From NCBI GenBank assembly GCA_021731025.1, contig JAKFYD010000029.1, positions 1-63,951 on the forward strand: 63,951 nucleotides of DNA, written 5' to 3'. The notes below the pieces were generated by a model, which was not told the DNA's origin, searched no databases, and saw nothing but the letters and a program-made list of their open reading frames with translations. Numbering within the stretch: position 1 is the stretch's first letter; each line of letters begins with the position of its first letter. This document shows positions 4,827-26,360 of the stretch, in pieces. The position numbers were made by a program, and so were the translations under genes. The DNA is from Pseudobdellovibrionaceae bacterium. GTDB taxonomy: Bacteria; Bdellovibrionota; Bdellovibrionia; Bdellovibrionales; Bdellovibrionaceae.

Positions 4827-4827
4827 A

Positions 4828-5345: not shown

Positions 5346-5547
5346 GAGTTCGCTTGCCGCAGTTCAAGACAAACTCGTTGGAACGCTACTTCCGTTAGCT
5401 GCCATGTGCGGGCTTGTGTTTGCCGGTCTAAGTTTTGTTGCCGGTCAACCCAATGCCAGGATGCACCTGATCTACGCCATTTTCGGAGCCGCTATCGGAT
5501 TCGGAGCTGAAAGTATTATTTCGCTCGTCAGAAGCCTTGTGCATTAA
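5227..5547 (+). CDS. VirB2/TrbC-like pilin subunit
   Basis: 106 residues with a long basic start, a signal/membrane segment (LIILITIPMIAVASV), a cleavage-like A-x-A region, and two further hydrophobic helices (TLLPLAAMCGLVFAGLSFVA and LIYAIFGAAIGFGAESIISL). This is the VirB2/TrbC prepilin plan. A strong AGGGGG stretch lies about nine bases before the ATG. In type IV secretion the product forms the conjugative pilus. Its position directly before VirB3- and VirB4-like genes supports the call. Confidence 0.75.
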   Translation: MKNLKNLNLKNIRANAKQIMKVLKLIILITIPMIAVASVESSLAAVQDKLVGTLLPLAAMCGLVFAGLSFVAGQPNARMHLIYAIFGAAIGFGAESIISLVRSLVH

Positions 5548-5562
5548 GAAAAGGTTTAACCA

Positions 5563-5883
5563 ATGGGACTTAAAACATCAACCGTCTATCGTTGCCTGGA
5601 CAAAAAAACCTACATCTTTGGCTTTGAAGTCATTGATCTGTTTTTAGTGTTCACGGTTCTTGCGCTCTTAAATTTTATTTTAGGTCATGTGCCGTATAAA
5701 TTTTTATTCACCTGGGGACCGACACTTGGTCTTGCAGTTTTTATAAAAATCATTAAGCGTGGAAAACCTGAAAACTATTTACAGCACCTGATCCGTTCTT
5801 ATTTTCAACCAAAAGTTCTTTCAGCCTTCGCTTTGGCGAAGAGAAGACCAAAATTTGTTAAACTTAAAGGAAGTAAACTATGA
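5563..5883 (+). CDS. VirB3/TraL-like inner-membrane protein
   Basis: 106 residues. It has a short cytoplasmic start (YRCLDKKTYIFGFEVIDLFL), two hydrophobic segments (about 22-40 and 45-62), and a basic tail (KRGKPENYLQHLIRSYFQPK) typical of the VirB3/TraL group. The stop overlaps the VirB4-like start by four bases (ATGA at 5880), a frequent arrangement because VirB3 works with and is sometimes fused to VirB4. It is predicted to sit in the inner membrane and help pilus assembly. Confidence 0.7.
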   Translation: MGLKTSTVYRCLDKKTYIFGFEVIDLFLVFTVLALLNFILGHVPYKFLFTWGPTLGLAVFIKIIKRGKPENYLQHLIRSYFQPKVLSAFALAKRRPKFVKLKGSKL

Positions 5884-8276: not shown

Positions 8277-8319
8277 ATTTTTCATCCTTAGAGCTAATTT
8301 TAAAATAAAAGAGGTAGAA

Positions 8320-9012
8320 ATGAAAAAAAAGATCATAGCCGTTTTTACGGCTTTCAGCCTTGTCTTTTCTTATTCGCAGCCTGGACGCTGCGATGCTTGG
8401 GGCGCTGATATTCCGATTCTCTTAGAGATCTTAGCTCAGTCGATCCAGCAGCTTATTCAGCTTAAAGCGATGCTGCAAAATAGTGACGATACTTTGAATC
8501 TTCTTCAAGACGTCAATCGCGGTATTAATGATTCGCTCTATTTAGCACAGACCCTTGGTCTTCGCATTGACCCTGGCATTTATCGGGATCTGCGAACCAT
8601 TGATCAGGCGGCTCAAAGTTTAGATCGTATTTACGGCGTAGTGACAGATTCAAAGCTTGCAACCGTACAGCGAAATACTGATCAAACGGTGGCTGAGGCG
8701 ATTTCTTTTAACAATGATTTAAATGAGTATGCTTTCAGACTTGATCAGATTGGCGAAGAAATAAAACAGTATTCCCATGCCGTATCTCCTGGAGGGGCGG
8801 CAAAATTAACTGCTGAAAGTCTTGGTGTAATGATTCATGTCTTAAACCAGCAAATGCGGGCTCAAGGGCAAGGCCTCAAACTTCAAGCTCAGGCGATGGC
8901 CGTCGCCAATAAAAAAGACAAAGATCAAACGGATCAGTATTTGCGTGAGGGGCAAGGATTAAAAATGAAGATGATGAATCTCAATCCTGAATTCAAAGTG
9001 ATGAGGTTTTAA
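8320..9012 (+). CDS. VirB5/TrbJ-like periplasmic transfer protein
   Basis: 230 residues with a clear signal peptide (MKKKIIAVFTAFSLVFSYSQ) and a long helical mature part rich in Gln and Leu (LAQSIQQLIQLKAMLQNSDD). This resembles VirB5/TrbJ minor pilus subunits. A ribosome-binding stretch AGAGGTAGAA precedes the ATG. It lies between VirB4- and VirB6-like genes, the canonical place for VirB5. Sequence similarity in this group is low, so the assignment rests on topology and context. Confidence 0.6.
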   Translation: MKKKIIAVFTAFSLVFSYSQPGRCDAWGADIPILLEILAQSIQQLIQLKAMLQNSDDTLNLLQDVNRGINDSLYLAQTLGLRIDPGIYRDLRTIDQAAQSLDRIYGVVTDSKLATVQRNTDQTVAEAISFNNDLNEYAFRLDQIGEEIKQYSHAVSPGGAAKLTAESLGVMIHVLNQQMRAQGQGLKLQAQAMAVANKKDKDQTDQYLREGQGLKMKMMNLNPEFKVMRF

Positions 9013-9014
9013 AT

Positions 9015-9896
9015 ATGGATGCGAATTGGCTATCGTCACAGGCGAGACTTATCCACGAAATTTTCTCATCGTTTTTTTATTCAATCGTGCTGCTTATGAT
9101 TACTTTAGGGGTAGTAATCAATTTTTTTAAAATGCCACTCGGTCAAGTGCCTGAATTTTTTCAGTTCGTGGGACGAGCTATAATTGCTGCATTTATTTTG
9201 GCCGCGTTTCCGGAGATCATGAACTTTTTAGCTGACACTACAGACGCACTCGCAAAAGAAATCGGACAGATAAATAATTTTGCACTCGTCGTCCATAAGC
9301 TTGGTGAAAAAATAGGGACCATGACTTGGTCATGGGTGAGTGTAAAAGATTCTATTCTTCTATTGATCAGCTATCTGACATTTTTCCTGCTTTATATTTC
9401 CGTGTATGTTGTCGATAGCATGTACCTATTAGTTTGGACGCTGATTTTTATTTTTTCACCACTTCTGATTGCAGCGTTCACTCTTCCTTCGACCGCAGCT
9501 GCGACAAAAGGACTTTTTCAAAGTCTGATTGAGGTGTGTCTGTGGAAAGTCTGTTGGAGTGTGCTTGCGGCCCTGCTTTGGAGTTTCGCCCTGTCAGAAA
9601 TTAACAAACCAGAATACGACGTCGATTTTTTAACGGCGATCATTCTGAATTTGATGCTGGCGTTTTCTGTTTTACTCACACCCATGATAGTTAGCAGTCT
9701 TCTTAAAGGTGGTCTTGCCAGTCAGGGAAGTTTTATGGGAAGTGCGGTTTTGGCAGCTGCGGCTCTTACACCGACCGGCATCCTTGGCAAAATTAAATCT
9801 GGCGGCGCAAAAGTAGCCTCTGGCTTTAAAAGTAGTGGGAAAGAAGAAACAGAGCCGGATGAAATCGAAAGAAAAGATCCGAAGCAAGCTCCTTAA
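9015..9896 (+). CDS. VirB6/TrbL-like polytopic membrane protein
   Basis: 293 residues with about six to seven hydrophobic segments (for example FYSIVLLMITLGVVINFF, ILLLISYLTFFLLYISVYVV, ALLWSFALSE and FSVLLTPMIVSSLL) and a soluble charged tail from about residue 260. This is the TrbL/VirB6 plan, the inner-membrane channel component of type IV secretion. It starts two bases after the preceding gene. The Trp in the central loop (TWSWVSVKDS) fits the family. The tail (EETEPDEIERKDPKQ) is likely cytoplasmic or periplasmic and disordered. Confidence 0.7.
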   Translation: MDANWLSSQARLIHEIFSSFFYSIVLLMITLGVVINFFKMPLGQVPEFFQFVGRAIIAAFILAAFPEIMNFLADTTDALAKEIGQINNFALVVHKLGEKIGTMTWSWVSVKDSILLLISYLTFFLLYISVYVVDSMYLLVWTLIFIFSPLLIAAFTLPSTAAATKGLFQSLIEVCLWKVCWSVLAALLWSFALSEINKPEYDVDFLTAIILNLMLAFSVLLTPMIVSSLLKGGLASQGSFMGSAVLAAAALTPTGILGKIKSGGAKVASGFKSSGKEETEPDEIERKDPKQAP

Positions 9897-9925
9897 CAAA
9901 TATTTTAACAATAAAGGTTCATTTT

Positions 9926-10465
9926 ATGAAAATTTCATTAAGTATTGATTCTCTATTAAAAGAAAATAAATTCCTGAAACTTGTCACAAAGTTGCTCTTT
10001 GGCTTGGTTTTCATTTTACTGTTGCAGGTGATTTCCCTCTATAGTCGTGACCCGATTATCATTCAAAGCTCAACGCGGGGTCGTGAAATTTTAGAGCCAA
10101 TGACGGTGTCTCGAACAAACTTAGATCTCAGAGTCGCAGCCCGAAATATGCTTAGGGCCCGTTTTGATACGGAAACACATTCTCCAGAATTATTTTTATC
10201 CGACAAGCAAAAAGCTCTTCGTGAGAATGAGCAGCGAGATCTTAAAAGCCGAAATATGACTCAGGTGATTGTAATTAGAGATATCGCATTGGCAAAAGAG
10301 CAAGCCTTTGTCGATTTGGACCGCGTGATTGCGGTCGGTGATCTTCGCTCAGCGATCCGTGCAAAAATTAAAATCGCATTTGAAGAATCAGAGGCTAACG
10401 AGCTTAACCCTTATGGCTTGGTTTTAAGCCTTGCCGAGGTTCAATCGAATGAGGTGAAGAAATGA
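9926..10465 (+). CDS. VirB8/TraE-like bitopic membrane protein
   Basis: 179 residues. A short cytoplasmic part is followed by one membrane helix at about 22-40 (LLFGLVFILLLQVISLY), and then a periplasmic domain with alternating strands and helices. Size, topology and position between VirB6- and VirB9-like genes match VirB8/TraE, the assembly hub in the inner membrane. The sequence alone would not be decisive. The stop overlaps the next start by four bases (ATGA), so it is translated with the following gene. Confidence 0.55.
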   Translation: MKISLSIDSLLKENKFLKLVTKLLFGLVFILLLQVISLYSRDPIIIQSSTRGREILEPMTVSRTNLDLRVAARNMLRARFDTETHSPELFLSDKQKALRENEQRDLKSRNMTQVIVIRDIALAKEQAFVDLDRVIAVGDLRSAIRAKIKIAFEESEANELNPYGLVLSLAEVQSNEVKK

Positions 10466-10854
10466 GATTGTTGATATTTTTTATAACCATGATTCTGAGT
10501 CTGTTATTTACCGATTTCGCTAAGGCTAAAAATTTGCCAAAAGTTGACGAGGGTAAATCCATTACTTGTGATGATAAAAAGCCAAAACCCGTCCGCGTGA
10601 CATTTGGTAGGGTCACAGTTTTAAATTTTCCGTTTAAACCGAAGGATGTGGTCCCTGGAAACCAGTCATTTGATTTTAAGCAAATCAAAAATGACTTAAT
10701 AATTATGGCGACAAGCTTCACAGGTAAAACAAATGCCGTTGTTTATCTAGAGGATCGGCGGTGCTCGTTTGATTTAATCACGGTAAAATCCGGCGGAGAC
10801 GACATTCTCACCGTCAAAGACCCGAAAGATTCACAGTATGAAATGAGGTTCTGA
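10462..10854 (+). CDS. Small secreted VirB9/TraK-like protein
   Basis: 130 residues: a signal peptide (MRLLIFFITMILSLLFTDFA) followed by a beta-rich domain (KPVRVTFGRVTVLNFPFKPK, then NDLIIMATSFTGKTNAVVYL). The N-terminal domain of VirB9/TraK proteins has this strand pattern, including the phrase 'fG..tvi.fp'. The protein is much shorter than classical VirB9 and lacks the C-terminal domain that contacts VirB7 and VirB10, so the outer-membrane ring may be reduced. It overlaps the VirB10-like gene by one base. Confidence 0.5.
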   Translation: MRLLIFFITMILSLLFTDFAKAKNLPKVDEGKSITCDDKKPKPVRVTFGRVTVLNFPFKPKDVVPGNQSFDFKQIKNDLIIMATSFTGKTNAVVYLEDRRCSFDLITVKSGGDDILTVKDPKDSQYEMRF

Positions 10855-11750
10855 TGACTGATGAAACCAAAACTGTTGAAGTTAAAGCTGATACAGGCAC
10901 GGCATCCATAGGTGTTAGCTCTTATTTTGAAAATGAAGGAAATTTTGGTAAACGGCATTTTAAAGTGACAAGCTTTATAACTATTGCACTGATTCTGTCG
11001 GTTTTTGTGACGGGATTATTCAATAAACGAAAAATACTGGGAAAAAACTCAAAAGAAATGCCTGCTCCGAATTTTAGCCGAGAAGTTCCAATCACAGCGC
11101 CGCAGATTTTAAACAATGTAAATTCCGTAAATGTTATTGGTCGAAGAGGAAATGGATCTTCTCAAGGAAAAATTAAAGTCCTAACTCTTCGCGGCCTTTC
11201 TGAAATACCGATTGGCTCCGAAGCAAAGGCTATTCTCGTGAGTGGCGGTACAGATGGCATGATCAAGGCAAGGCTTACACAGCCTCTTATCGCAGATGGT
11301 GAGCCGATTGTGCCAGAAAATTCTATTTTATTCGGTAAAGGAAAATCCGGTGATGAGAGACTGTATGTTGAATTTAGTAAAGTGATTTTCCCAACGGGGG
11401 AAAGTTATTCCATTTTAGCTCAGGCTTTTGATCAATCCGATAAGATCCAGGGTTTAAAAGGTTCAGTCGTGGGCTCACGCTCAAAAAAAATGGGAATGGC
11501 TATGGGACTTGGGCTTTTGGGTGGCATGGCTGACGGTCTTCGTGAAACGAGTGGTTCAAGTTTTTTCATTGCTCAAAAGCCAAGCATGAGAGACGCAGCC
11601 CTTGGAGGAGCGTCGAGAGCTGCGCTTGATCAGAGCGCTACCTATCTGGAAGAAATGAAAAAATCTCCGAATATTATTGAAGTTAAATCTGGCTCTGAAT
11701 TCTTCATCATTATTGATGAGCCAAAAAAGAAGGACAACGTGTATGATTAA
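10854..11750 (+). CDS. VirB10/TrbI-like scaffold protein
   Basis: 298 residues with one membrane segment at about 42-58 (TSFITIALILSVFVTGLF), a proline/asparagine stretch and a C-terminal domain. That domain has the VirB10/TraB pattern: PIGSEAKAILVSGGTDGMIK, VPENSILFGKGKSGDERLYV, SKVIFPTGESYSILAQAFDQ, then a Gly/Met-rich helix (GMAMGLGLLGGMADGL) resembling the outer-membrane antenna. The product spans the periplasm and links the inner-membrane ATPases to the outer-membrane pore. It overlaps the coupling ATPase gene by eight bases. Confidence 0.7.
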   Translation: MTDETKTVEVKADTGTASIGVSSYFENEGNFGKRHFKVTSFITIALILSVFVTGLFNKRKILGKNSKEMPAPNFSREVPITAPQILNNVNSVNVIGRRGNGSSQGKIKVLTLRGLSEIPIGSEAKAILVSGGTDGMIKARLTQPLIADGEPIVPENSILFGKGKSGDERLYVEFSKVIFPTGESYSILAQAFDQSDKIQGLKGSVVGSRSKKMGMAMGLGLLGGMADGLRETSGSSFFIAQKPSMRDAALGGASRAALDQSATYLEEMKKSPNIIEVKSGSEFFIIIDEPKKKDNVYD

Positions 11751-13134
11751 TGACCCCAGCGATAAAAATAAATTTCCCATAGCTGATAAAATCTTCAAGG
11801 TCTTTAGGTTTTTATGGATCTCGGTTTTGGAAATTTATCGCGGTATTGAAACAGAATCTTTTCCGCTTTGGCAATACTGCGGTGGTGGAATTTTGTTCTC
11901 ATATTACCTATTATTTAATCTCGATATCTGGCTTGCTCACCTTATTGAAAGTGAGCTTTACCTTGAGCAAGGTCCGGCAAAGCTTTGCCTTATTCTTTTT
12001 TCAGCGTCGAGTGGTTTGATTTTCTATGGGTGTAGTCGTGCTGTGGACCGAATGAAATTGGTTGAGCGTCTTAAAAAAGCCTTTGATTACTGTGATCTAA
12101 AATCTGGAGGACTCTATCCGTCTTTCATCAGTGATGAACCAATTGACGAGTTCGTTCGGCAAATGAAGCTTTTTGTCCCTGGAATTCCACTTCAACGGTT
12201 TAAAGACAAAAAACTGGAACTTGAGGCGCATTTCAATGTGACGATTGTTAAATTCTTTGAGGAAGAAAATGATAAGACCCGGATCAATCTAATTTATTCG
12301 ATGCGTGATTTACCTTCAAGCCTTGTCTTAGAAAACCCACAGGATTTCGTTGATTGCGACATTCCGATTGGGAAAGGTTATGCCTCACAATTAAAAATCA
12401 ACTTAAAAGACATGGGCCACATGATGGTGGCGGGCCAAACCGGCGGTGGTAAATCGAATTTTCTAAAGACCGTGACTTCAATTCTTTGCTTAAACAATCA
12501 GAATGCGGACGTTCACTTTTTGGATTTCAAGGAAGGTGTTGAGATGATGGCTCTAAAAAATAAGCTTGGTAGCGAGCAAAAGAATTTTCACACTCATGAT
12601 GGTGCGGAAAAAGCCATAGAATATTTGGCGGGGCTAACAGATCTTTTAACTGAAAGGCTTAACCAGATTAAGATCTCTGGTGCGATTAACTTCGATGAGT
12701 ACTTAAAAAAATCTGTAGCAGTTCAACCAAGCACTGAGACTTTTTCAAAGAGCGAAGCGCAGAACAAAAAAGAAAAGCTAAGTCGTCTTTTCATTGTTGT
12801 TGATGAAATCGCACAAGTTTACGTAAAAGATAATTCTTCAACCAAGGAACTTAAGAACAAAGCCCGCGAGGCCCTTAACAAAATCGCAAGGCAAGGGCGC
12901 GCGGCAGGTGTGCATTTGATCGTGGCCACCCAGAAGCCAGATGCTCAAAGTTTTGATCAAACTGTCAAAGCCAATATGCCAGCCGTACTTTGTTTCCCGA
13001 TGCCAAGCCAGGTGGCTAGCGTCTCCGTACTTGGTACGAAGCGAGCCTACGACTTAAATCCCGAAATTAAGGGCCGAGCGATTTACAAGTTTGGTCCTAC
13101 CTTGCACGAGGTTCAAACATACTATTTCCAATAG
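11743..13134 (+). CDS. FtsK/SpoIIIE-type coupling ATPase of the conjugative element
   Basis: I start it at the ATG at 11743 (MINDPSDKNKFPIADKIF), just inside the previous gene; the longer frame to 11677 lies in the VirB10-like sequence. Two membrane segments (about 40-60 and 75-95) are followed by an FtsK/SpoIIIE motor: Walker A GHMMVAGQTGGGKSNFLKTV near residue 228, DVHFLDFKEGVEMM, Walker B RLFIVVDEIAQVY near 350, then RQGRAAGVHLIVATQKPDAQ. The family drives double-stranded DNA, whereas VirD4/TraG couplers are a different branch. It probably feeds the element DNA to the secretion channel. Elements of Gram-positive bacteria also use FtsK-type couplers. Confidence 0.8.
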   Translation: MINDPSDKNKFPIADKIFKVFRFLWISVLEIYRGIETESFPLWQYCGGGILFSYYLLFNLDIWLAHLIESELYLEQGPAKLCLILFSASSGLIFYGCSRAVDRMKLVERLKKAFDYCDLKSGGLYPSFISDEPIDEFVRQMKLFVPGIPLQRFKDKKLELEAHFNVTIVKFFEEENDKTRINLIYSMRDLPSSLVLENPQDFVDCDIPIGKGYASQLKINLKDMGHMMVAGQTGGGKSNFLKTVTSILCLNNQNADVHFLDFKEGVEMMALKNKLGSEQKNFHTHDGAEKAIEYLAGLTDLLTERLNQIKISGAINFDEYLKKSVAVQPSTETFSKSEAQNKKEKLSRLFIVVDEIAQVYVKDNSSTKELKNKAREALNKIARQGRAAGVHLIVATQKPDAQSFDQTVKANMPAVLCFPMPSQVASVSVLGTKRAYDLNPEIKGRAIYKFGPTLHEVQTYYFQ

Positions 13135-13146
13135 AGGTGACTTTAG

Positions 13147-14070
13147 ATGAGAACTGAAAATCAAAATTTAATTGGCTCTGGCAGAAGCACCAAGGCTAAA
13201 CCCAGAAAAATCGGACGTTCGGAGTATCTTACCCATCGCGATAGTAAAATCCTAACATACCTCTGGCGCTGGAAGATCGCATCAACCACTTCGATCCATG
13301 AGGCAATCAATAAAATTTCGTCTAAGTATTCAACTTATAAGATTCTGGATAAGCTTGAGCGGTCAGGATTTATCGGAAGCTATTTTGATTACGAAGAGCG
13401 CTTCTACGTCTGGCAGCTCACGAGCAAAGGATTTACAGTGATTCGGAAAAAATTCGATGAGTTAGCTGAAGAAGGATTTTTATCTGAAAACCCAAATCAT
13501 GATCGCCTTGTTCAGGCTTTTCATTTAGGTGAATGGGTGACATATCATAGTCCGAATATCATTTTTTGGACTGAGCAGGAAATGCGCAGGTTTGATGTGG
13601 CTGATTATCCCGAATGGGTGCCAAGATCCAAAGAGCACCGGCCCGATGGATACACCAGAGTGGTCGGTGCAAATAAAGCCTACACTTTTGCTTTTGAAGT
13701 TGAGCTTTCGACAAAACGGATTTCAAAGTACGAAACAACTATGCAGTTTTATAAACACGCTAAACAAATTGATCGTGTGTATTGGCTGGTGGATCAGAGC
13801 TACACCCGAGAACAAATTCTTAAGGCAAAGGCTTGCGTGAATGACGAATCGTTTAACTATCATGTGTTCATTGAACTGGAAGATTTCAAGAAAAACGGCT
13901 GGGATGTGATGATTACCAACGAACGCTCGGAAAAGGTTCACACGATCCGTGAAAATATGCAGGAAATTTGCGGGGATTTTTACAGGGATCTGATGGAGAC
14001 CTACAGGGGACGCTCCACGGTTCATGTCCATTTGAACAATTTAAAAGTCATCGGTAAAACAAAGACTTAG
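13147..14070 (+). CDS. Replic_Relax-type DNA-processing protein (candidate relaxase)
   Basis: 307 residues. The first 120 are winged-helix-like (LTHRDSKILTYLWRWKIAST, TYKILDKLERSGFIGSYFDY, FYVWQLTSKGFTVIRKKF), as in the Replic_Relax family. The following part has a PD-(D/E)XK-like pattern: EHRPDGYTRV, then about 13 residues later FAFEVELSTKRISKYE, that is D, E-x-E and K at the usual spacing. The gene lies directly after the coupling ATPase, where a relaxase is expected, and no classical MOB histidine-cluster relaxase is present in the element. Inference: it nicks or processes transfer DNA. A purely regulatory role is also possible. Confidence 0.55.
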   Translation: MRTENQNLIGSGRSTKAKPRKIGRSEYLTHRDSKILTYLWRWKIASTTSIHEAINKISSKYSTYKILDKLERSGFIGSYFDYEERFYVWQLTSKGFTVIRKKFDELAEEGFLSENPNHDRLVQAFHLGEWVTYHSPNIIFWTEQEMRRFDVADYPEWVPRSKEHRPDGYTRVVGANKAYTFAFEVELSTKRISKYETTMQFYKHAKQIDRVYWLVDQSYTREQILKAKACVNDESFNYHVFIELEDFKKNGWDVMITNERSEKVHTIRENMQEICGDFYRDLMETYRGRSTVHVHLNNLKVIGKTKT

Positions 14071-14176
14071 CGCGATTCGGCCGCGGGGACGTCTTCATGA
14101 CTGACTACCCCTACGCTCCTTATTCGCTCCTATGCCTCTTATCATTCTATCAACTCTAAACCTACGAGGTCTATTC

Positions 14177-14407
14177 ATGAAAAGGTTTGAAAAATCTTTT
14201 TTACTTTGTATTTTTATTATCATCACTGGGTGTCAGAACATGAAAAATAAATCTGACAATAAAACTCAAAACCAGATGCCGCCCAAATTATTAAAACCTG
14301 AAATTAAGAAAATTTGGATTCCAGAAGTGATTAAAAACGGCGGCACTGAATGGGAAGAAGGTCATTATCTTTACCGAATTCAGAGGGACACGTCATGGAG
14401 TCGGTAA
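14177..14407 (+). CDS. Small lipoprotein, VirB7-like
   Basis: I start it at the ATG at 14177 (after CGAGGTCTATTC): MKRFEKSFLLCIFIIITGCQ is a lipoprotein signal peptide with lipobox ITGC. The mature part is about 58 residues, Pro/Lys-rich (PPKLLKPEIKKIWIPEVIKN) with an aromatic end. Size and position are like VirB7/TraV-type lipoproteins that anchor the outer-membrane ring, or like entry-exclusion lipoproteins. The sequence is too short to decide. The stop overlaps the next gene by 13 bases. Confidence 0.5.
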   Translation: MKRFEKSFLLCIFIIITGCQNMKNKSDNKTQNQMPPKLLKPEIKKIWIPEVIKNGGTEWEEGHYLYRIQRDTSWSR

Positions 14408-14916
14408 ATAATAATTTTACCAGCGAAGTTCAAGCGGTGGATGTAACAGCTGAAAACATTTTAAAACAGAAAGAAAAAATTCAGATAGAAAGGGTCTCCC
14501 TTGGTAAAGAGGAATCTGATATTCTAAATAAGTGGCTTATGCAGATTAAAGGTTCAACCAAGGGCTTTTTGGATTTAACTAAATCTGATCTCGTTAATTT
14601 CTTGATTAAGTCTCACAGCGAAGATTTGTCGGCAAAAGAAATTAAGAAGATCCGTCTTAGTCATTACAGTCTGATTAAGCATTTAAACTGGATTACGCCG
14701 CAGTTAAAGAAAGCCTTTGAAGAAAATAATCTTGAGCAGGTCAGAAGCTTACAGCTTGAACTTCGTAGCCTTGAGCTTGGAATCATCAAGGGAGCGGAGA
14801 ACAAGAATTCCACTTTAGTGGCGGACGTTTCCGACAGAGCGGAAAAACAGCGCGTAAAAAAACATAAAAACAAATCCATCACAGATAAAAACGAACCACA
14901 TCAATCCCAAGAATAA
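14395..14916 (+). CDS. Helical accessory protein, possibly mobilization-related
   Basis: 173 residues from the ATG at 14395, which lies inside the end of the lipoprotein gene. The protein is basic and almost entirely helical (FLDLTKSDLVNFLIKSHSED, LSAKEIKKIRLSHYSLIKHL) with a Lys-rich tail (RVKKHKNKSITDKNEPHQSQ). Small basic helical proteins next to relaxase-like genes are often DNA-binding relaxosome accessories (MobC-like), but I see no ribbon-helix-helix signature that would prove it. No other function is recognised. Confidence 0.5.
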   Translation: MESVNNNFTSEVQAVDVTAENILKQKEKIQIERVSLGKEESDILNKWLMQIKGSTKGFLDLTKSDLVNFLIKSHSEDLSAKEIKKIRLSHYSLIKHLNWITPQLKKAFEENNLEQVRSLQLELRSLELGIIKGAENKNSTLVADVSDRAEKQRVKKHKNKSITDKNEPHQSQE

Positions 14917-14976
14917 TTTTTCAAATCTCGAAATTTTAAAAACGTGGAATTGATTTATTTTAGGAGTTGTGAGACT

Positions 14977-15195
14977 ATGAAATTAATAAAGTTTGATGAT
15001 GTTCATCAAAAAAAGTTCTTTGAAAATATAGAAGTATGGTTGTCAACAAAAGACGTAGCAAGGTTTCTTTCGGTTTCACCAAACGCGGTCAGGATCATGG
15101 TTTGTAGGGGCTTACTTCCCAGTTACAAATTCAAGGGCCGACTTCGTTTTTTGAAAAAAGATTGTGTCGCTCTAGTCCAAAAAACTGGAGCATAA
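14977..15195 (+). CDS. Excisionase-like MerR/AlpA-type HTH protein
   Basis: 72 residues from the ATG at 14977 (TAGGAG twelve bases before); the GTG at 14944 would add 11. The core EVWLSTKDVARFLSVSPNAV followed by RIMVCRGLLPSYKFKGRLRF is the compact winged HTH of the excisionase / helix_turn_helix_17 group: 'L(S)TKDVA..L.VS...V..M...G.LP..K..GR.RF'. It ends three bases before the integrase start. Inference: recombination directionality factor for the integrase. Confidence 0.8.
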   Translation: MKLIKFDDVHQKKFFENIEVWLSTKDVARFLSVSPNAVRIMVCRGLLPSYKFKGRLRFLKKDCVALVQKTGA

Positions 15196-15197
15196 AA

Positions 15198-16292
15198 ATG
15201 GCTATTAAAAGTTACACATTAAAAGGAAAGAAATTATTTGAGGTTTATGTCAATGGATCAGATCTTCGCGGCAAACGTGTTCAGATGCGAAAACGCGGAG
15301 TCGAGTCCATTACAAAAGCAAAAGATCTTGAATTTGAATTTGAGCGGGACCTTGCAAAACAGAAAGAAGGCGAAATTCATTTACGCTGGCATGAATGGTT
15401 CACGGAATGCATGAATCTTATGAAGGTCTCTTACAGAAATTCGACCTGTTACAGTTATGAAAAAACCTGCGGTAAATGGGTAAATCAACATTTAGAAAAT
15501 AAAGAGCTTCGGAAAATCACGAAATTTGATATTCATGAAATTCTTTACGAAAAGATTGTTGGTGAGCGGGTCACTGATCACACTCGAAAATTCACCTTGA
15601 AAATTATTAAGCGAATTTTCCAGATGGCGGTCGACCACGGTAAACTTGATCGTAACCCCTGCCAAGGGATGACGATTAAAGTTCCCGAGACAGAGCAGAA
15701 AGTTTTAACGAACGCTGAGGTTGAAAAACTTTTGTTTGAGGCAAAGGTTACGGATCACAGGTTTTATCCGATTTGGATTTTAGCCTTATTCACAGGGATG
15801 CGTTCCGGCGAATTGTATGCGCTAAAGTGGTCAAATGTCGATTTCGAGGCGCGAACGATCAGTGTTTCAAGAAGTTGGAACAGCAAAAATGGTTTTACTC
15901 CGACGAAGAATCAAAAATCCAGAATCGTCCCTATCAGTGATGAGCTTTTAGTTTTTCTAAAAGAGCTTAAACTTAAATCGGGCGATGAGGAGTTTGTTCT
16001 TCCCCATCTTAATGAATGGAGCCGGGGTGATGCCGCTTATGTGCTGAAGGATTTCTGCAAAACGCTCGGTATTACTCAAATCAGGTTCCATGATCTACGA
16101 GCGACATTTATCACCAATCTGCTGGCTAGAGGTGAATCCCTGGCCCGCGTGATGGCGATAGTTGGTCACTCGGACATAGAAACCACGAACGTCTACGTGC
16201 GCAAAGCTGGGATCGAATTAACTGGTGGAACTGAGAAGCTTGGCTTTAAGGTGCCAACGGATCGGGCCGCCAAGGTTCTTCGGCTTGTTTAG
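15198..16292 (+). CDS. Tyrosine recombinase (integrase) of the conjugative element
   Basis: I start it at the ATG at 15198, directly after the excisionase stop, rather than at 15162 inside it. 364 residues. An Arm-like N-terminus (YTLKGKKLFEVYVNGSDLRG) and a SAM-like core-binding domain (WHEWFTECMNLMKVSYRNST) precede the catalytic domain. That domain has Arg in GMRSGELYALKW (about 199), His-x-x-Arg in RFHDLRATF (about 297), His in VGHSDIETT (about 321) and the nucleophile Tyr in TNVYVRKAG (about 331). All catalytic residues are present. It marks the right end of the conjugative element. Confidence 0.9.
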   Translation: MAIKSYTLKGKKLFEVYVNGSDLRGKRVQMRKRGVESITKAKDLEFEFERDLAKQKEGEIHLRWHEWFTECMNLMKVSYRNSTCYSYEKTCGKWVNQHLENKELRKITKFDIHEILYEKIVGERVTDHTRKFTLKIIKRIFQMAVDHGKLDRNPCQGMTIKVPETEQKVLTNAEVEKLLFEAKVTDHRFYPIWILALFTGMRSGELYALKWSNVDFEARTISVSRSWNSKNGFTPTKNQKSRIVPISDELLVFLKELKLKSGDEEFVLPHLNEWSRGDAAYVLKDFCKTLGITQIRFHDLRATFITNLLARGESLARVMAIVGHSDIETTNVYVRKAGIELTGGTEKLGFKVPTDRAAKVLRLV

Positions 16293-16485: not shown

Positions 16486-17679
16486 CTATTGCGAACCATC
16501 CCTAGTAAAAATTCTTTCTCCAACTTGCATTTGTACTTCTTTGATCCGGCTGTTTCGTGCTTTAGCATATCTATCCGTCGTGGATATATTCTTGTGGCCA
16601 GCGAGCGTTTGGGTAATCTTGATGTCACCAGACGCCTCCTGAGCTTCAGAGAGCGAGGCATGCCTTAGTATGTGAGTCCCAGAAAAAGGAATGTCAGCGT
16701 TCTTGAAAGCTTTGTCGTAGGCATGTTGAATGGACCTGTAAGAAGGCCATCCATCATCACGCCTAAACAAAGGACCATGTCGAACTCCTGCCTTTAGTGT
16801 CCACTCCCGAAATAACTTTATAAGCTGAGGACTTAACGTGATCCTTTTTCCAGTACTACTTTTAGATCCTTGAATCAGTTCACGGGTACAATCTTTCACT
16901 CTTCTAAAAATTATCTTTTTATCGAGTTTTAACGAACCCGCGGCAAAATCAAAATCTTCATAGTGCAAAGCCACGACATCTTGAATCCGCGAAAATGAAA
17001 AATACTGCATTCCTGCTAGGTAATAGTAGAAATCGTCATCAGCCTTCTTTAACTCTTCAAAAAAACGTCTTACTTGATCTGGAGTTAAATCTTTTTGAAT
17101 CATCACGATTTCTTTGATTTTAAGATTTTCCTTATGCCGTTTGAGAAATGGCATTCGGTATTCGTAATCAATAGTTTCGTGATAGTATCCGAGAAGTACT
17201 TTTAAAAAAGTATACTCATGTTCAAAATTACAACGTCGTGTACTATGCAGAGCCCTCTGTTCAGGGCTTTTAAGCCAAGCCAACCACGAATCAATTTGAA
17301 TTGGTCCAATTGCTTTAATTGTTCTATCCCAAAGAGGAAGAAAAAATCGGCAATAACTTTTGTACTTATCTTGAGTGTTGATAGCTCGGTGGATAAGCTG
17401 ATTTGCTTCGTAGAAACTAAAAAGTTCTCGCAAAGTCATTCCATCAGCCGGTGACTGGTCTAAATTTGCAAAGCCCATTCGATCTTCTTTAAAACTTTTA
17501 GCTTCATCAAAACTATCAAAATGTCTTTTCAATCGTTGAAGAGATTTTCCATTCCCTTCATACCGAGCAGCCGCAAACTTAGAACCTCGTTCAGGTTCAA
17601 CCCATTTTTTGCCGTCCATTGAAACTAAAACTCGATAGATGCCGGGAAAATTTTTAATTTTCTGATACTTTCTTTTCAT
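16486..17679 (-). CDS. Tyrosine recombinase (integrase) of the second element
   Basis: Reads on the minus strand from the ATG at 17679, which overlaps the upstream AlpA-like stop (ATGA). About 397 residues. The N-terminal part (NFPGIYRVLVSMDGKKWVEP) is Arm-like. The catalytic domain has Arg in FSFSRIQDVVALH (about 228), His-x-x-Arg in THILRHASLSEA (about 333), His in LAGHKNISTTD and Tyr in RYAKAR (about 370). It is only distantly similar to the other integrase and points towards it, so it belongs to a separate element extending to the right. All catalytic residues are present. Confidence 0.88.
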   Translation of the reverse strand: MKRKYQKIKNFPGIYRVLVSMDGKKWVEPERGSKFAAARYEGNGKSLQRLKRHFDSFDEAKSFKEDRMGFANLDQSPADGMTLRELFSFYEANQLIHRAINTQDKYKSYCRFFLPLWDRTIKAIGPIQIDSWLAWLKSPEQRALHSTRRCNFEHEYTFLKVLLGYYHETIDYEYRMPFLKRHKENLKIKEIVMIQKDLTPDQVRRFFEELKKADDDFYYYLAGMQYFSFSRIQDVVALHYEDFDFAAGSLKLDKKIIFRRVKDCTRELIQGSKSSTGKRITLSPQLIKLFREWTLKAGVRHGPLFRRDDGWPSYRSIQHAYDKAFKNADIPFSGTHILRHASLSEAQEASGDIKITQTLAGHKNISTTDRYAKARNSRIKEVQMQVGERIFTRDGSQ

Positions 17680-17978
17680 TTGATCTCTCTTTCCGCAATC
17701 CAAGAATCGAGAGAAGCAATTTTAAAGCGAATGCCCCTTATGCCAATTTGAACAAACGGTATTTTGCCTGTTGCTTTTAATCGACGTAAATAGGATTCGC
17801 ATATCGAGAGATACTTAGAGGCCCCTTTGTAGTCTAATAATTGATTTTCAAAGAACAAATCCTCTTTACCAACATTTTTAGGCAAAGAAAGATTTGAACT
17901 TCTGTCATTTATCCTAAACTGGTCAATGGAAGCTGTATTTTTTTCTCTGAAAATAGGGGTATTTTTATTGGTAATCAT
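17676..17978 (-). CDS. AlpA/excisionase-like HTH protein
   Basis: 100 residues. The first 45 are unconserved, and then LLDYKGASKYLSICESYLRR followed by LKATGKIPFVQIGIRGIRFK forms the winged HTH of the AlpA/excisionase group (DNA-binding helix around ESYLRRLK; wing with IRGIRFK). It overlaps the integrase start by four bases. In satellites such as PICIs the AlpA protein often controls induction and excision. Inference for this element. Confidence 0.7.
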   Translation of the reverse strand: MITNKNTPIFREKNTASIDQFRINDRSSNLSLPKNVGKEDLFFENQLLDYKGASKYLSICESYLRRLKATGKIPFVQIGIRGIRFKIASLDSWIAEREIK

Positions 17979-18012: not shown

Positions 18013-19827
18013 TTATAGTTCTTCGTCCTTATAACTTTCGGGATCGTTGAAGTGTATTGTCCGGATCGGTTGAGATTCTTGACTATCTTGAGATCCTTTA
18101 ACATCGCTTTTGATCGTCGGGGAATGGTTAGGCAGTGACCAGTTCCAAACCATTGTTGATCCAGAATCAGTAGCTCGCTTTGATCGGATACGGACTTTTT
18201 TCTTTGCTCGTGTGAGAGTTTGTTTAGAAATTCCGGCATTCTTAGCTTCCTTAAGGACTTCTAAGGCATGCATGGGTCCGTCTTTAAGGGCATCTTCAAG
18301 AAATTCACATGCTCTCTCAAGTTCGCTAGCCAATTCTTCTTCCGTGTCTTCAACAGTATCTTCAAGCTCGCCCATAAAATGAAATATGCCTTCATCTAGC
18401 CGATATCCAAACGGCTTTGCTTTCATGCCTATATTACTTTTTACGTGTAAAACTTTTTTTAAGCCTTTATCTTTATCGTCCTCACACACTTGAAGGATGG
18501 AACGAACAGCGGCGGAAATATCAATTGAGCCAAGACCTTTAGTTATACCCTTTTGTTCATTACTTTTAGAAAGATGACGAGTAACTATAATAGCGCAACC
18601 AAATTCATTCGCGAACTGAGAAAGTTTTTTAAAAAAAGGCCGCATATCACTTGCCTTATTAGAATCCTTTTTCCCCTCAAGAAAGGGCATCAAAGGGTCT
18701 ATTATCACAAGGCCAGGTTGATATTTTTTTATTAAATTTTTTAGTTTCTCAAATCCGTCGTCATCAAGAGTAAAAAGATCTTTTGGGACCAAAACTTTGG
18801 AAAGGTCTGCATCCATTTTCTCAATTCTGGGACGTATAGTGTCTTCTAGCCCATCTTCTGCGCTCATTAATAAGACATTAGCGGCTTCAAACAACGATTG
18901 ATTTTGAAAGTGCTTTCCACCACGAGTAACGGCAGCCGCAATCCACAATATTAAAAAAGTTTTACCTGTTCCTGGATGTCCTTCGATTAGGGTTGTTTTA
19001 GATTTGGCAATGTACTTTTCAAAAAGCCAATCAATGGAAGTAGGCATTACTTCATCCAGAGATATAACTTCTCTATATTTTTTTGATGTACCAATTATTC
19101 GCATCAATCCACTAGGACCGTTTTTTTTCAATTCATCAGTAACATCATAAGCAACTGGAGTTTCTGTCGACCATTCTACAAATCTAGCGTCGACATCGTA
19201 TGACAATAAACTTTCGCCGCGAATGGTAGTTCCTTCAATTCCGGCTATATCGGCATCTAGTGTAATAATGATTGGAATTTCTATAGCAGTCAGTTGTTCT
19301 GAAAAATCATCCTTCCAAACGTTGGCCCCGCATGTATTTGTTATTGCAAGAAAGCCCTGCGAAATAGCTGCAAGAGCATCCATTTCACCTTCAACTAATA
19401 AGACGAGAGTCCAATCCTTAATGCTAAGATAAATTTTTTCAAGTGGATCAACAATGTCAACCTTCTCAAGGTTCTCAGTGGTATTGCAGTTCTCGTCATA
19501 TTGTCTTTTTTGCTTCATCTCTAGAAGTGTAAAGATTTCTTGCGGATAAAGCTTAGGAGTTCCATTGCCTCCTTTCAATGACAAAATTTTCTGGGCCTTT
19601 TTTCGCCGTTTATTTGGTGGTAAGTACTCGCGCACATCTGCGTACAATCCGTCTGAGTCCCGAACAGGAATGCTAATACGTGATCCATTTTCACCGATAT
19701 TAAAAGCATCGATGATTTCCGCTGATAGCATCCGATCATTAATTAAAAAATTAACTGTTTCCGGTTTAATATTCTTTTTAAAATCGATAATTTTTCTCTC
19801 TAGTTCTAGAAAATTTGAATTAGACAT
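18013..19827 (-). CDS. TOPRIM-AAA primase-helicase (RepA-like)
   Basis: Starts at the ATG at 19827 (MSNSNFLELERKIIDFKKNI, after GGAGCAAAAA); the open frame to 20010 is a shadow of the zinc-finger gene. 604 residues. The TOPRIM region has LVEGEMDALAAISQGFLAIT at about 142 and IITLDADIAGIEGT at about 185. An AAA_25/RepA-type ATPase follows, with Walker A IEGHPGTGKTFLILW (about 280), LVIIDPLMPFLEG (about 375) and VTRHLSKSNEQKGITKGLGS. The C-terminus (ALEVLKEAKNAGISKQTLTR) is a winged-helix-like tail. It probably primes and unwinds the element DNA. It carries no CHC2 finger; that is the separate upstream gene. Confidence 0.8.
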   Translation of the reverse strand: MSNSNFLELERKIIDFKKNIKPETVNFLINDRMLSAEIIDAFNIGENGSRISIPVRDSDGLYADVREYLPPNKRRKKAQKILSLKGGNGTPKLYPQEIFTLLEMKQKRQYDENCNTTENLEKVDIVDPLEKIYLSIKDWTLVLLVEGEMDALAAISQGFLAITNTCGANVWKDDFSEQLTAIEIPIIITLDADIAGIEGTTIRGESLLSYDVDARFVEWSTETPVAYDVTDELKKNGPSGLMRIIGTSKKYREVISLDEVMPTSIDWLFEKYIAKSKTTLIEGHPGTGKTFLILWIAAAVTRGGKHFQNQSLFEAANVLLMSAEDGLEDTIRPRIEKMDADLSKVLVPKDLFTLDDDGFEKLKNLIKKYQPGLVIIDPLMPFLEGKKDSNKASDMRPFFKKLSQFANEFGCAIIVTRHLSKSNEQKGITKGLGSIDISAAVRSILQVCEDDKDKGLKKVLHVKSNIGMKAKPFGYRLDEGIFHFMGELEDTVEDTEEELASELERACEFLEDALKDGPMHALEVLKEAKNAGISKQTLTRAKKKVRIRSKRATDSGSTMVWNWSLPNHSPTIKSDVKGSQDSQESQPIRTIHFNDPESYKDEEL

Positions 19828-20050
19828 TTTTTGCTCCTTGGTTCCACAAACCCAATTTTTTGAACTCATTAATGATTGACTCTTTCGAACATCCAGCAAA
19901 ACAGTGAAAGAGTATTTTGTTATTTCCGTCTGAAATAGAAAGCGATGGATTTTTATCGTTATGGGCAGGGCAATGAACCATAAAACTTGTTGGGGTACGT
20001 TGTATGCCACGTAACCTTTTGAAGAAGTCTTTAGCTGTTAGGTGACTCAT
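19820..20050 (-). CDS. Stand-alone CHC2-type primase zinc-binding protein
   Basis: 76 residues: FMVHCPAHNDKNPSLSISDG followed by NNKILFHCFAGCSKESIINE is the CHC2 primase zinc finger (Cys-x-x-His and Cys-x-x-x-Cys ligands). It overlaps the primase-helicase start by eight bases and its own start overlaps the upstream HTH gene by four. In most element primases this finger is fused to the TOPRIM domain; here the two parts are separate ORFs in different frames. Clean coupling signals at both ends argue for a natural split rather than a sequencing error. Confidence 0.8.
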   Translation of the reverse strand: MSHLTAKDFFKRLRGIQRTPTSFMVHCPAHNDKNPSLSISDGNNKILFHCFAGCSKESIINEFKKLGLWNQGAKNV

Positions 20051-22618: not shown

Positions 22619-23057
22619 TTCATTTGGGGTAATTTCCAAATTTGCAGTCACTTTCCGCTTTTAGAGCCTAAGAAAGCCAGATGTTGGTCTTTAACTTTTA
22701 ATTTGGTTCATAATCAAATGTAGTATTCGAACGGCATTTTAATCAATAATAGCCTCATTTTGAGATCATTATTATAAAACCTAAAATTGTTAGTGATTTC
22801 AGCAGTTTAACATGTCAGCTTATATAAAATTTTATTTTTTGTAAGATTTACATATTATGCTTTATTATGATTAACAAAATACATTACTATTATTAAAGTC
22901 TGCCTAGACACATAACGTATTTTTAGAGTACAAATTTTTTAATTGTGATAAATTAGTTTTAAGGATAAATATACGTATATGTATGTATACCTATATTTTT
23001 TTTTAAAATGTATATGTATATACATTTCCACTTAAATGACTGCTAAAGAAAAGAACA
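22619..23057. promoter_or_regulatory. AT-rich gene-free stretch with palindromic operator-like sites
   Basis: About 440 bp, very AT-rich and without a credible ORF. The last 90 bp before the phosphatase gene hold repeated TATATGTAT-type units: the perfect palindromes ATATACGTATAT at 22969-22980 and ATGTATATACAT at 23014-23025, with GTATGTATAC between them. These are good candidates for binding sites of the HTH domain of the adjacent gene, which would make the operon self-regulated (inference). No clear -35/-10 pair can be singled out in so AT-rich a sequence. Confidence 0.5.
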
Positions 23058-24026
23058 ATGCAAGCAAAAGATTTAGCTAAAATTTTGAAAGATTATCGTG
23101 AAAGAAATGAAATATCTCAAATTGATATGGCCAAAAGACTTAGCTTTACTCAGGCAACTATTTCAAGAATAGAAGCTGGGAAACAATTGCCACGAAAAGC
23201 GCAGATCCGGAAAATTTTAGACTTAGTGCTCGCTAATAGTGAATTAATGAAAGCCCAATTTGAATCAAATTTTGAAGAAGTAGGAAGCTTTAGTAACAAG
23301 ATAGTTTTTAATGAAAATTATTACGCTTATCATAAATCTGAATGGAATTGTTTTATGGCAAGTAGGCCCCATGGATCGGCTACAGGGGGAGATGTTCTCT
23401 TATTAAGAGAATTGAAAAAACACTCTCAAATTGGAGTATTGGTTGGAGACAGTGTTGGGCATGGCACCAGTTCTGCCTATATGTCTTTTGCATTAGAATT
23501 TGCATACACCGCTATTGCGTCCATGTTAAACCCAATGCTGCTGAACCCAGAGCTTTTCGATAAGGCTATAGCTACGGGAATAGTTAAAACAGCTAAAAAT
23601 TGGCGTGGCGAACCTAGCATGATTATACTGCAGCTTGATATGGAAAAAGCACAGTTGTCTCTTGTCAACAGAGGCATGCCCCATCCAATTTTAATGGACG
23701 GAGAAAAGGCAAATTTTATAACCGAAAAGAGAGCGAGCGCATTTAGTTTGCAAAATATTAGTTCAGCTAAACTGTCATTTGATCAAAAGTTTGAACCTGC
23801 GCAGTCAATTTTTCTATACAGTGACGGATTATTGGACCTAATACCTGAAAACAATCTTTTACAGACTATGCAGAAGCTAAATAAAGTTTTTAAAGGGGAC
23901 TCTCGAGCTATTGGAAGAAATTTAATAAGGCAAATGGAGAAGAACTCAGCAGATAAACAATTTGATGACGTGAGTTTTACAATAATCTCCAGAGCAATTA
24001 AGAGGAAGAAAAATAATGTCGTTTAG
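23058..24026 (+). CDS. XRE HTH fused to SpoIIE/RsbU-type PP2C phosphatase
   Basis: 322 residues. Residues about 5-55 are an XRE HTH (RERNEISQIDMAKRLSFTQA followed by TISRIEAGKQLPRKAQIRK). From about 85 a PP2C phosphatase domain of the SpoIIE/RsbU type follows: ATGGDVLLL (about 110), GVLVGDSVGHGTSSA (about 130), NRGMPHPIL (about 203), LYSDGLLD (about 252) and DDVSFTII (about 302). The metal-binding aspartates are all present, so it should be active. Phosphatases of this group normally dephosphorylate a STAS anti-anti-sigma factor in a partner switch. Here the enzyme carries its own DNA-binding domain. It is the first gene of a three-gene operon and overlaps the next by 11 bases. Confidence 0.85.
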   Translation: MQAKDLAKILKDYRERNEISQIDMAKRLSFTQATISRIEAGKQLPRKAQIRKILDLVLANSELMKAQFESNFEEVGSFSNKIVFNENYYAYHKSEWNCFMASRPHGSATGGDVLLLRELKKHSQIGVLVGDSVGHGTSSAYMSFALEFAYTAIASMLNPMLLNPELFDKAIATGIVKTAKNWRGEPSMIILQLDMEKAQLSLVNRGMPHPILMDGEKANFITEKRASAFSLQNISSAKLSFDQKFEPAQSIFLYSDGLLDLIPENNLLQTMQKLNKVFKGDSRAIGRNLIRQMEKNSADKQFDDVSFTIISRAIKRKKNNVV

Positions 24027-24435
24027 AAAAGAGTGGAAAAGAAATCAAATTAACAGGGAGCTTTTAAATGAGGAAGTATATATTTTCATTGAAGATACTC
24101 TCAAGGCATACAAAACGAAGCCACTTGCTGACAGTTATAATGATGCTCGCCTTATTACAAGAGAGCTCGTAGATAACATATATGTACATAATACCGCTCT
24201 TACAATTATAGTTACACTTTCAATTAGCAATCATGAACTCACGATAGGGATTTTTCATGATGGTGGAGAGTTTGATCCCTTTGATCCGAGTAATAAATGT
24301 GATCTTTTAAAAGCCAGGGACCAAGAGTATAAATTTAATACTACTTTTAAGCCTAACCAAAATGGTAACTATGAATTAATTTTGAAAATTGATCTTAGTC
24401 ATATAGTTGACACAGGAGCTTCAGATGGACATTAA
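24016..24435 (+). CDS. RsbW/SpoIIAB-like GHKL ATPase (anti-sigma-like kinase)
   Basis: 139 residues. The N box is ARLITRELVDNIYVHN (Glu and Asn of E-x-x-x-N near 48-52) and the G1 box is GIFHDGGEFDPFDP (Asp-x-Gly near 80). The lid and G2 box are not obvious, so the fold is diverged. Small stand-alone GHKL proteins of this size phosphorylate STAS partners and sequester a sigma factor or another target. It lies between the PP2C phosphatase and a STAS-like gene, the RsbU-RsbW-RsbV set. It overlaps both neighbours (11 bases each). Confidence 0.7.
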   Translation: MSFRKEWKRNQINRELLNEEVYIFIEDTLKAYKTKPLADSYNDARLITRELVDNIYVHNTALTIIVTLSISNHELTIGIFHDGGEFDPFDPSNKCDLLKARDQEYKFNTTFKPNQNGNYELILKIDLSHIVDTGASDGH

Positions 24436-24799
24436 ACATTTTAAATTTCAATTGAATGACGAAATATCGACATTAGAAATTTTCTTTTCTGGAGAATTGA
24501 AGGGTATTGATGATTTCAAAACGGATACTTTCACAAAATTAGTAAGAAAGATTAAATCAGATGCCGAAAGTAAATTAGTTTATCTCAATTTAAACGACAT
24601 ACAGTTTTGGGATACTGAAGGAATGAGGCAAACGCTTATACTAGCTCATGATATTAATTCTAAGGTAGGAAATGATCTTAGAGTGGCTATAGTTGCTCCT
24701 CGTGATGGTTATTTGTATAAAAGAGCTATCGAAAAATACAAAGATATTGTTGATAAAACAGTAAAGTGGAAAATTACTTCCACCAGTGACTTAATTTAA
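24425..24799 (+). CDS. STAS-like anti-anti-sigma protein
   Basis: 124 residues from the ATG at 24425, preceded by AGGAG at a six-base spacing. The core KLVYLNLNDIQFWDTEGMRQ followed by TLILAHDINSKVGNDLRVAI corresponds to the STAS strand-loop-helix 'v.lDl..v.fiDS.Gl..L'. The usual phosphorylated Ser is replaced by Thr (D-T-E-G, about residue 61). The N-terminal strand region (STLEIFFSGELKGIDDFKTD) also fits. It would be the phosphorylation switch between the upstream kinase and phosphatase. No sigma factor gene is adjacent, so the final target is unknown. Confidence 0.65.
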   Translation: MDIKHFKFQLNDEISTLEIFFSGELKGIDDFKTDTFTKLVRKIKSDAESKLVYLNLNDIQFWDTEGMRQTLILAHDINSKVGNDLRVAIVAPRDGYLYKRAIEKYKDIVDKTVKWKITSTSDLI

Positions 24800-25037
24800 C
24801 TAATTTTAATCGTGAAGTTTGAATAAGAATAAATTGATATGCAAAATATGCGAACTGTATAGAGCTACAAGAGGCCTACTTGGTATCGCTCTGTGACGCT
24901 TCTCAAAACTCAACTGCTTGATAATGTTATATTACTGAATAAGGCCAGTTATTTAAGGAGCACGCATTATAGACCTGTACTCCCTACCAACTTTTTCCTC
25001 GTTTATACTCAGATTTTTCAGATATCAGAACAGCTTT

Positions 25038-25076
25038 CAGTATTCGGTTTCAGTATTCGGTTTCAGTATTCGGTTT
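25038..25076 (+). repeat. Three perfect tandem copies of a 13-bp unit
   Basis: CAGTATTCGGTTT occurs three times without gaps at 25038, 25051 and 25064, followed by a partial fourth copy (CAGTA). The unit shares CAGTAT with the quasi-palindrome that follows at 25101, so the whole block may have arisen by slippage from one sequence. An array of protein-binding iterons is an alternative. Confidence 0.85.
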
Positions 25077-25100
25077 CAGTACGGTATTCTGAATGCAGCA

Positions 25101-25733: not shown

Positions 25734-26360
25734 ATGCAAACACACTTCACCTTAGCTGAAGCTAAACAAATTCTCGTTCAACAGGTTCATGAAATGTTCG
25801 AGTGGGTTGGATTCGAAACCCGAAATAAATATCGAATCATCGATTCGCAGGGGCACGAGATCGCTTTTGCGGCCGAACAGCAAAAAGGATTATTGAATCT
25901 TCTTTTTAGACAGTGGCTCGGTCATTGGAGGAAGTTCGATGTTCATTTTTTCTCGAATGATCGAGTGATTTTTATGATTGGTCATCATCCTTTTCGGTGG
26001 TTCTTTCAGCGTCTTGAGTTGAAAGACACTCACGGACGCTTTCTTGGTGCTATTCAACGTCGTTTTTCGATTTTATCCAAAAGATTTGATGTTGAAAATG
26101 AGCATGGAATTGTGATTATGGAAGTTTCCTCGCCTATTTGGAGAATATGGAATTTTACATTCTTGAGTCGGGGACGAGCCGTGGCCGTTATCAATAAAAA
26201 ATGGTCTGGTTTATTTTCTGAAGCGCTTACAGACCGGGATAATTTTTTGATTGATTACTCGGATCCTTCGCTTTCAGAAACCTCAAAGAAGCTGGTCTTA
26301 GCGGCTGCAATTTTTGTGGATCTGATGTTTTTTGAAAGAAAAGCAGGTTCCAGTAGATAA
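25734..26360 (+). CDS. Phospholipid-scramblase/LURP-one-like protein
   Basis: 208 residues. The alternating strands VGFETRNKYRIIDSQGHEIA, LKDTHGRFLGAIQRRFSILS, RFDVENEHGIVIMEVSSPIW and GRAVAVINKKWSGLFSEALT follow the twelve-stranded Tubby/LURP-one barrel. The final hydrophobic helix (KKLVLAAAIFVDLMFF) is the usual buried or membrane-associated C-terminus. In bacteria this family has no established activity; true scrambling of lipids is not implied. A converging terminator follows at 26413. Confidence 0.75.
   Translation: MQTHFTLAEAKQILVQQVHEMFEWVGFETRNKYRIIDSQGHEIAFAAEQQKGLLNLLFRQWLGHWRKFDVHFFSNDRVIFMIGHHPFRWFFQRLELKDTHGRFLGAIQRRFSILSKRFDVENEHGIVIMEVSSPIWRIWNFTFLSRGRAVAVINKKWSGLFSEALTDRDNFLIDYSDPSLSETSKKLVLAAAIFVDLMFFERKAGSSR

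Follow-up and report, generated by a model that had tools for sequence, protein, structure and literature searches.

A probable mobile partner-switching module built around a DNA-binding PP2C phosphatase in a relative of Bdellovibrio

In the usual account of partner switches such as RsbU-RsbV-RsbW (sigma-B) and SpoIIE-SpoIIAA-SpoIIAB (sigma-F), the last component is a sigma factor or some other, separate effector. SiaABCD of Pseudomonas aeruginosa also switches partners, with a target other than a sigma factor: its output is a diguanylate cyclase, SiaA does not bind DNA and SiaC represents a different substrate family. In ImmR/ImmA of ICEBs1 and in CI-type systems, an XRE repressor with autoregulatory palindromes is carried on an integrative element and controlled by a partner protein. 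In PPM phosphatases the N-terminal domain normally serves as a sensor and works by linker-driven dimerisation, and phosphatases of the RsbU kind are activated when the N-terminal domain and a short linker unite two phosphatase domains (PMC12143880). According to a 2025 survey, the DNA-binding members of the bacterial PP2Cs have hardly been studied and may be activated by DNA (PMC12088040). No report of an HTH-SpoIIE fusion was found in the literature that we covered, most subscription journals falling outside that coverage.

We analysed a 63,951-nucleotide stretch of DNA (the window) from a relative of the predatory Bdellovibrio bacteria, referred to as G000 in our comparison set. An operon at 23058–24799 comprises three genes on the plus strand, encoding an HTH-PP2C, a GHKL-like and a STAS protein in that order (Table 1), and successive genes overlap by 11 nt at both junctions; the start of the STAS gene shifts to 24407 if TTG is used instead of ATG. 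A sequence-only reading of this DNA had described an HTH fused to a phosphatase, together with an RsbW-like GHKL protein and a STAS protein, with overlaps between all three genes, and both the composition (by open reading frames, profiles and motifs) and the overlaps were confirmed. Its statement that no sigma factor is nearby also holds for the operon; about 18 kb upstream, at the start of an ICE-like region, lies a protein (3978–4823) with two sigma-70 region-4-type matches and without region 2, which may be a regulator of that region.

Table 1. Coordinates of the trio, its upstream palindromes and the adjoining mobile-element genes in the window.
Feature	Position	Strand	Details
HTH-PP2C gene	23058–24026	+	322 aa
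HTH-PP2C domains	XRE/Cro-CI HTH, residues 6–57; helical linker, about 62–76 (low confidence); SpoIIE/RsbU-type PP2C, about 85–313		
Gene for short RsbW/SpoIIAB-like GHKL protein	24016–24435	+	139 aa
Gene for STAS-domain protein, RsbV/SpoIIAA-like	24425–24799	+	124 aa; ATG with GGAGC upstream
Predicted operator palindrome AAATGTATATGTATATACATTT	23006–23027	.	contains 14-mer ATATGTATATACAT at 23012–23025, common to two other copies
Second palindromic site TATACGTATATGTATGTATAC	22970–22990	.	TATACGTATA at 22970–22979; GTATAC at 22985–22990
Tyrosine integrase, adjacent integrative element	16486–17703	-	Pfam, PHROGs
Toprim/AAA primase-helicase, adjacent integrative element	18013–20010	-	Pfam, PHROGs
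Neighbouring ICE-like element	3978–16292	+	TraG/VirB4-type ATPase, TrbI, FtsK-like ATPase, integrase 15162–16292; Pfam

One profile per protein was run over 369 genomes of the phylum. Full-length HTH-phosphatase fusions were found in four of them (G000, G003, G171 and G227), the remaining profile matches being HTH-only or phosphatase-only, and the GHKL and STAS profiles, run separately, matched exactly the same four genomes. In each of the four, which represent four genera and two families, the trio genes are adjacent and in identical order, with the proteins of the relatives sharing 18–37% identity with those of the window. The case raised beforehand against the proposal, that the three genes occur separately, was not encountered among the 369 genomes. 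The trio is a real co-conserved module.

By species family, G000 belongs with G003 and G171 with G227. Each trio gene alone gives (G000,G171),(G003,G227), and the pairing by species family is rejected every time (AU p of 0.00026, 0.0014 and 0.0092 for the three genes singly, and far lower for the concatenation). Because every gene on its own rejects the species tree with the same pairing, the trio seems to travel as a unit. From these trees, joint horizontal transfer would be the simplest reading, the alternative being an ancient duplication followed by loss in nearly all genomes; the dataset behind it comprises four sequences from one phylum, analysed by sequence and model alone. Searches by tblastn of plasmids (with the window, G171, G003 and G227 phosphatases) and of phages (with the window and G003 phosphatases) returned no copies, or HTH-only matches, for example to HipB-like and CI-like repressors; viral contigs likewise gave none or HTH-only matches, and scans of genome contigs with a few short patterns recovered only the G171 and G227 records.

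Both domains of the phosphatase score well above the curated cut-offs: HTH_31 covers residues 6–57 (E 4.5e-10) and SpoIIE (PF07228) residues 123–312 (E 2.2e-15), the latter scoring 57.5 bits against a curated cut-off of 25, which the fusions of the three relatives also pass. Its metal motifs are complete (GGD from residue 110, DSVGHG from 131, SDG from 255 and DD from 303) and in the alignment the metal aspartates are kept in all four copies; the G003 phosphatase is without the GHG of DxxGHG. The structural model of the PP2C domain matches the RsbU domain of Rv1364c (Z 24.4), SiaA (Z 24.2) and the RssB PP2C (Z about 22). The best PHROG is phrog_3, ‘transcriptional repressor’, the HTH being nearest to phage repressor families. 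Domains and motifs together bear out the description of a phosphatase with all metal residues and a DNA-binding domain of its own, and this domain sits on the phosphatase itself in all four known copies.

The third protein is a weaker match to its family, with a Pfam STAS E value of 0.026 and a score of 14.7 bits below the curated cut-off of 22.6 (20.6 for the G171 copy). It is supported by the NCBIfam slr1659 and anti-sigma antagonist (ant_ant_sig) superfamilies, and the sole matches of its profile in the PDB, all weak, are SpoIIAA/anti-sigma-F antagonists (best E 0.17; range 0.17–0.22), with the profile aligning to SpoIIAA across the D-S-S-G loop. The predicted phospho-acceptor is T64, within D63-T64-E-G, and D-[S/T] is aligned at this position in all four copies; the STAS-like character first read from the letters is borne out by the NCBIfam match, the SpoIIAA alignment and this conserved pair.

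The GHKL assignment is the least certain of the three. No Pfam family matches the protein, and the assignment draws on the N-box residues E50 and N54 (conserved in all four aligned copies), the G1 Asp (D82 in the window, kept in three of the four copies and replaced by Asn in G171), a weak match of the relative at locus L033 to the RsbW model (E 2.6e-4) and a low-confidence structural model (pLDDT 57.7), whose best VIA matches are UsfX, SpoIIAB, SiaB and RsbW (Z 6.0–7.2), mixed with unrelated entries. The G2 GxG box was found in none of the four aligned copies and the ATP lid is equally unrecognisable. Of the GHKL ATPase proposed by the sequence-only reading, the N-box and D82 stand; kinase activity is uncertain because the G2 box is lacking, and the protein may be a binding protein without kinase activity. 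All other matches to the RsbW-type ATPase family in this genome lie in long open frames (at least 493 codons), so no second stand-alone RsbW-like protein is seen in it.

The palindromes reported directly upstream of the operon, AAATGTATATGTATATACATTT and TATACGTATA, are real (Table 1), and the first of them supplies the strongest of the new evidence. Among the 369 genomes, the 14-mer ATATGTATATACAT occurs nine times; three occurrences lie just upstream of a trio, in the same orientation towards the operon, and the other six, at a background level similar to that of the reversed control, look unrelated. The 12-mer ATGTATATACAT is present once per genome in G000, G003 and G171, always in the region just upstream of the trio, and a 12-mer common to three of four shuffled upstream regions appeared in 0 of 1000 trials; the motif was picked from the data, and the fair reading of these counts is that the window motif recurs in two of three diverged copies and is near-absent from the genomes. 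The window has a single TATACGTATA, and the region upstream of the G003 trio has two. Half-sites are in excess in all four upstream regions, that of G227 having half-sites only, without an exact palindrome; in a promoter scan, sites were no more numerous than in shuffles.

The trio has what is expected of an XRE autoregulator, an HTH domain and a palindromic site upstream of its own gene. Since the HTH is the one conserved DNA-binding part, and the upstream palindrome is shared and almost unique, the HTH of the phosphatase probably acts at this palindrome in its own promoter. This genome holds no second exact operator site apart from that of the operon, and no 12-mer with up to two mismatches lies near the integrase promoters or excisionase genes of the window. 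A wider operator regulon was considered and rejected: most of the G000 sites with one mismatch fall inside coding sequence or are those of other genes, and the exact sites seen in G227 and in further genomes did not look related. Notable among the sites of other genes in G000 is GACATTGTATATACATGTATATACAATGTC (L065, contig C25, about 1501–1522), a long and perfect palindrome around the start of a nucleotidyltransferase-like gene that is followed by a short antitoxin-like gene; it is probably the own operator of this pair, with the same TGTATATACA core as the site of the trio.

The clearest mobile context is that of G003, where the trio is inside a 9.35-kb tRNA-Ser island, between two copies of an 18-bp att-like repeat CCTCTCCGCCAAATTCGT (L034 7029 and 16378). 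CTCTCCGCCA within this repeat is the 3′ end of the tRNA-Ser gene (L034 1057–1149) and recurs at 7030 and 16379. The segment carries an integrase at its end, an excisionase-like HTH and a D5/DUF5906 primase, and another integrase lies between the tRNA and the trio segment, giving one integrase per segment; L034 1057–16396 is probably a tandem array of two integrative islands at the tRNA-Ser gene. The window trio adjoins two integrases, a primase and an ICE-like T4SS region. No borders of a window element were found beyond an 11-bp repeat CTCCCTACCAA (16417 and 24980), which is no longer than chance would produce in a comparison of this kind, and no empty site was found in relatives, where the search did not find the flanking genes together. 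The G227 trio is surrounded by toxin-antitoxin-type genes (HipA, AbiEi/ii) and directly adjoined by a divergent ECF-type sigma gene (L032 9968–10678, Sigma70_r2 E 2e-9). Next after the sigma gene, within L032 9968–11256, comes one whose product may be a membrane protein, of no recognised family, and could be the matching anti-sigma factor.

Among the other loci, the mobile island of G003 has an integrase, and none was recognised on the 16.7-kb contig of G171. No neighbour gene is common to all four trio loci; a sigma gene is linked to the trio neither within the operon nor in common between loci, and adjoins it in the one relative named above. Immediately 3′ of the window trio are tandem 13-bp repeats, TTTCAGTATTCGG (25035–25081). 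Other features of the window are a gene for a bacterial scramblase-family protein at 25734–26360 (PF03803, E 8.2e-33), not found in five relatives tested, two adjoining lipoprotein-like genes at 1007–3212 that are tandem duplicates (DNA blocks 71–82% identical), and a tmRNA gene at 60044–60390 with the tag peptide GNDYQLAA.

We consider it reasonably probable that the trio is a self-contained partner-switching module that moves horizontally and regulates its own expression. In the scheme that we infer, which extends to DNA binding, phosphorylation, their coupling and the direction of regulation, the XRE domain of the phosphatase would recognise, most likely as a dimer, palindromes of the TGTATATACA type in its own promoter. 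From what is known of the families, the PP2C domain would dephosphorylate T64 of the STAS protein; the RsbW-like protein would bind this STAS protein and, if active, phosphorylate it. Because RsbU-kind phosphatases are activated through pairing by the N-terminal domain and linker (PMC12143880), binding to DNA is probably coupled to phosphatase activity; the analogy suggests that operator binding and phosphatase activity of the HTH-PP2C influence each other. Operator-bound dimers would then be in a phosphatase state different from that of the free protein, the GHKL or STAS partner would tip the balance, and the immediate output would be the transcription of the operon itself, with any further target lying outside it. 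A more specific version, which we put forward tentatively, is a three-protein, sigma-free switch on mobile elements that has the DNA-binding domain of its own phosphatase as the regulated target. Operator DNA would dimerise the PP2C and switch it on, and DNA occupancy and the phosphorylation of the STAS protein would each be translated into the other.

Two other accounts are each somewhat unlikely. One is a classical partner switch that acts on a distant target: an unlinked sigma factor, or some other effector, would be held by the GHKL protein and freed by the STAS protein, and the HTH would do no more than autoregulate the operon. The composition of the trio is standard for RsbU-RsbW-RsbV systems, a divergent ECF-type sigma gene adjoins the G227 trio, and the targets of these systems vary, with housekeeping sigma-66 serving in Chlamydia (PMC8256260); against this, the other three loci have no adjacent sigma gene, all four loci together share no neighbour, and movement between families as three genes argues against reliance on one host sigma factor. 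The other account, to which we give equal weight, takes DNA as the input: operator or foreign DNA bound by the HTH would activate the phosphatase, and the trio would sense element copy number or DNA state and pass the signal on, by way of the STAS protein, to an effector of defence or stress. The usual sensor role of PPM N-terminal domains (PMC12143880), the suggestion that DNA-binding PP2Cs may be DNA-activated (PMC12088040) and the toxin-antitoxin-type genes around the G227 copy all fit, but there is no PADLOC family match beyond the HTH and no conserved effector beside the trio. A known anti-phage defence system was rejected on the same HTH-level PADLOC matches.

Slightly less probable is that the HTH is the master repressor of a mobile element and that the STAS and GHKL proteins serve as anti-repressor, the part that ImmA plays towards ImmR in ICEBs1. 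The phage repressor family that is the best PHROG of the HTH, the integrative island around the G003 trio and the integrases and primase beside that of the window speak for it; against it stand the single exact site per genome, the lack of exact or two-mismatch 12-mers near the integrase and excisionase genes of the window, the G171 contig with no recognised integrase and the failure to find element borders in the window. The proposal of the sequence-only reading that the trio controls excision or a lysis-lysogeny-like choice is not supported, as the operator is single in the genome, absent near the integrases and set among neighbours that are not conserved; the lack of a second exact site and of common neighbours argues against a wide direct regulon and against direct integrase control, while indirect control of integrases is conceivable. 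That the trio is a decaying or cryptic cargo remnant without present function, as the missing G2 box and the GHG lost in G003 might imply, is most improbable, given reading frames that are intact and overlap, the retention of metal and acceptor residues at 18–37% identity to the window proteins, a conserved upstream site and joint transfer.

The self-regulating mobile module that we favour shares with the RsbU-RsbV-RsbW and SpoIIE-SpoIIAA-SpoIIAB switches a phosphatase of SpoIIE/RsbU fold, a STAS protein with Asp followed by Ser/Thr, a short GHKL protein and a tight operon. It differs from them in having an XRE HTH as the N-terminal domain of the phosphatase, an operon without a sigma factor, a GHKL protein without a recognisable G2 box or lid, and a unit that moves with its own upstream palindrome. 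Membership of the Rsb/Spo group is incomplete, since there is no linked sigma factor, the STAS match is below the cut-off and the GHKL protein is without G2. SiaA PP2C and SiaB GHKL are among the closest solved structures to the trio models, but no diguanylate cyclase gene is part of the trio. Response regulator phosphatases of the RssB/HsbR type have the same order of signalling domain, linker and PP2C, with a receiver domain where the trio has an HTH. With ImmR/ImmA and CI repressors the trio would share an autoregulated XRE protein in an integrative element, and phage repressor families are the nearest to its HTH; the partners here would work by switching phosphorylation instead of by proteolysis, and no sign was seen that the trio controls element promoters. 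As the system is small, with operator and phospho-acceptor predicted to the residue, the coupling of DNA binding to Ser/Thr dephosphorylation is readily testable. We call the trio a new mobile variant of partner switching, in which the phosphatase, usually the input, is itself predicted to be a regulator that binds DNA. Its operator can be identified, and the three genes move from family to family as a package.
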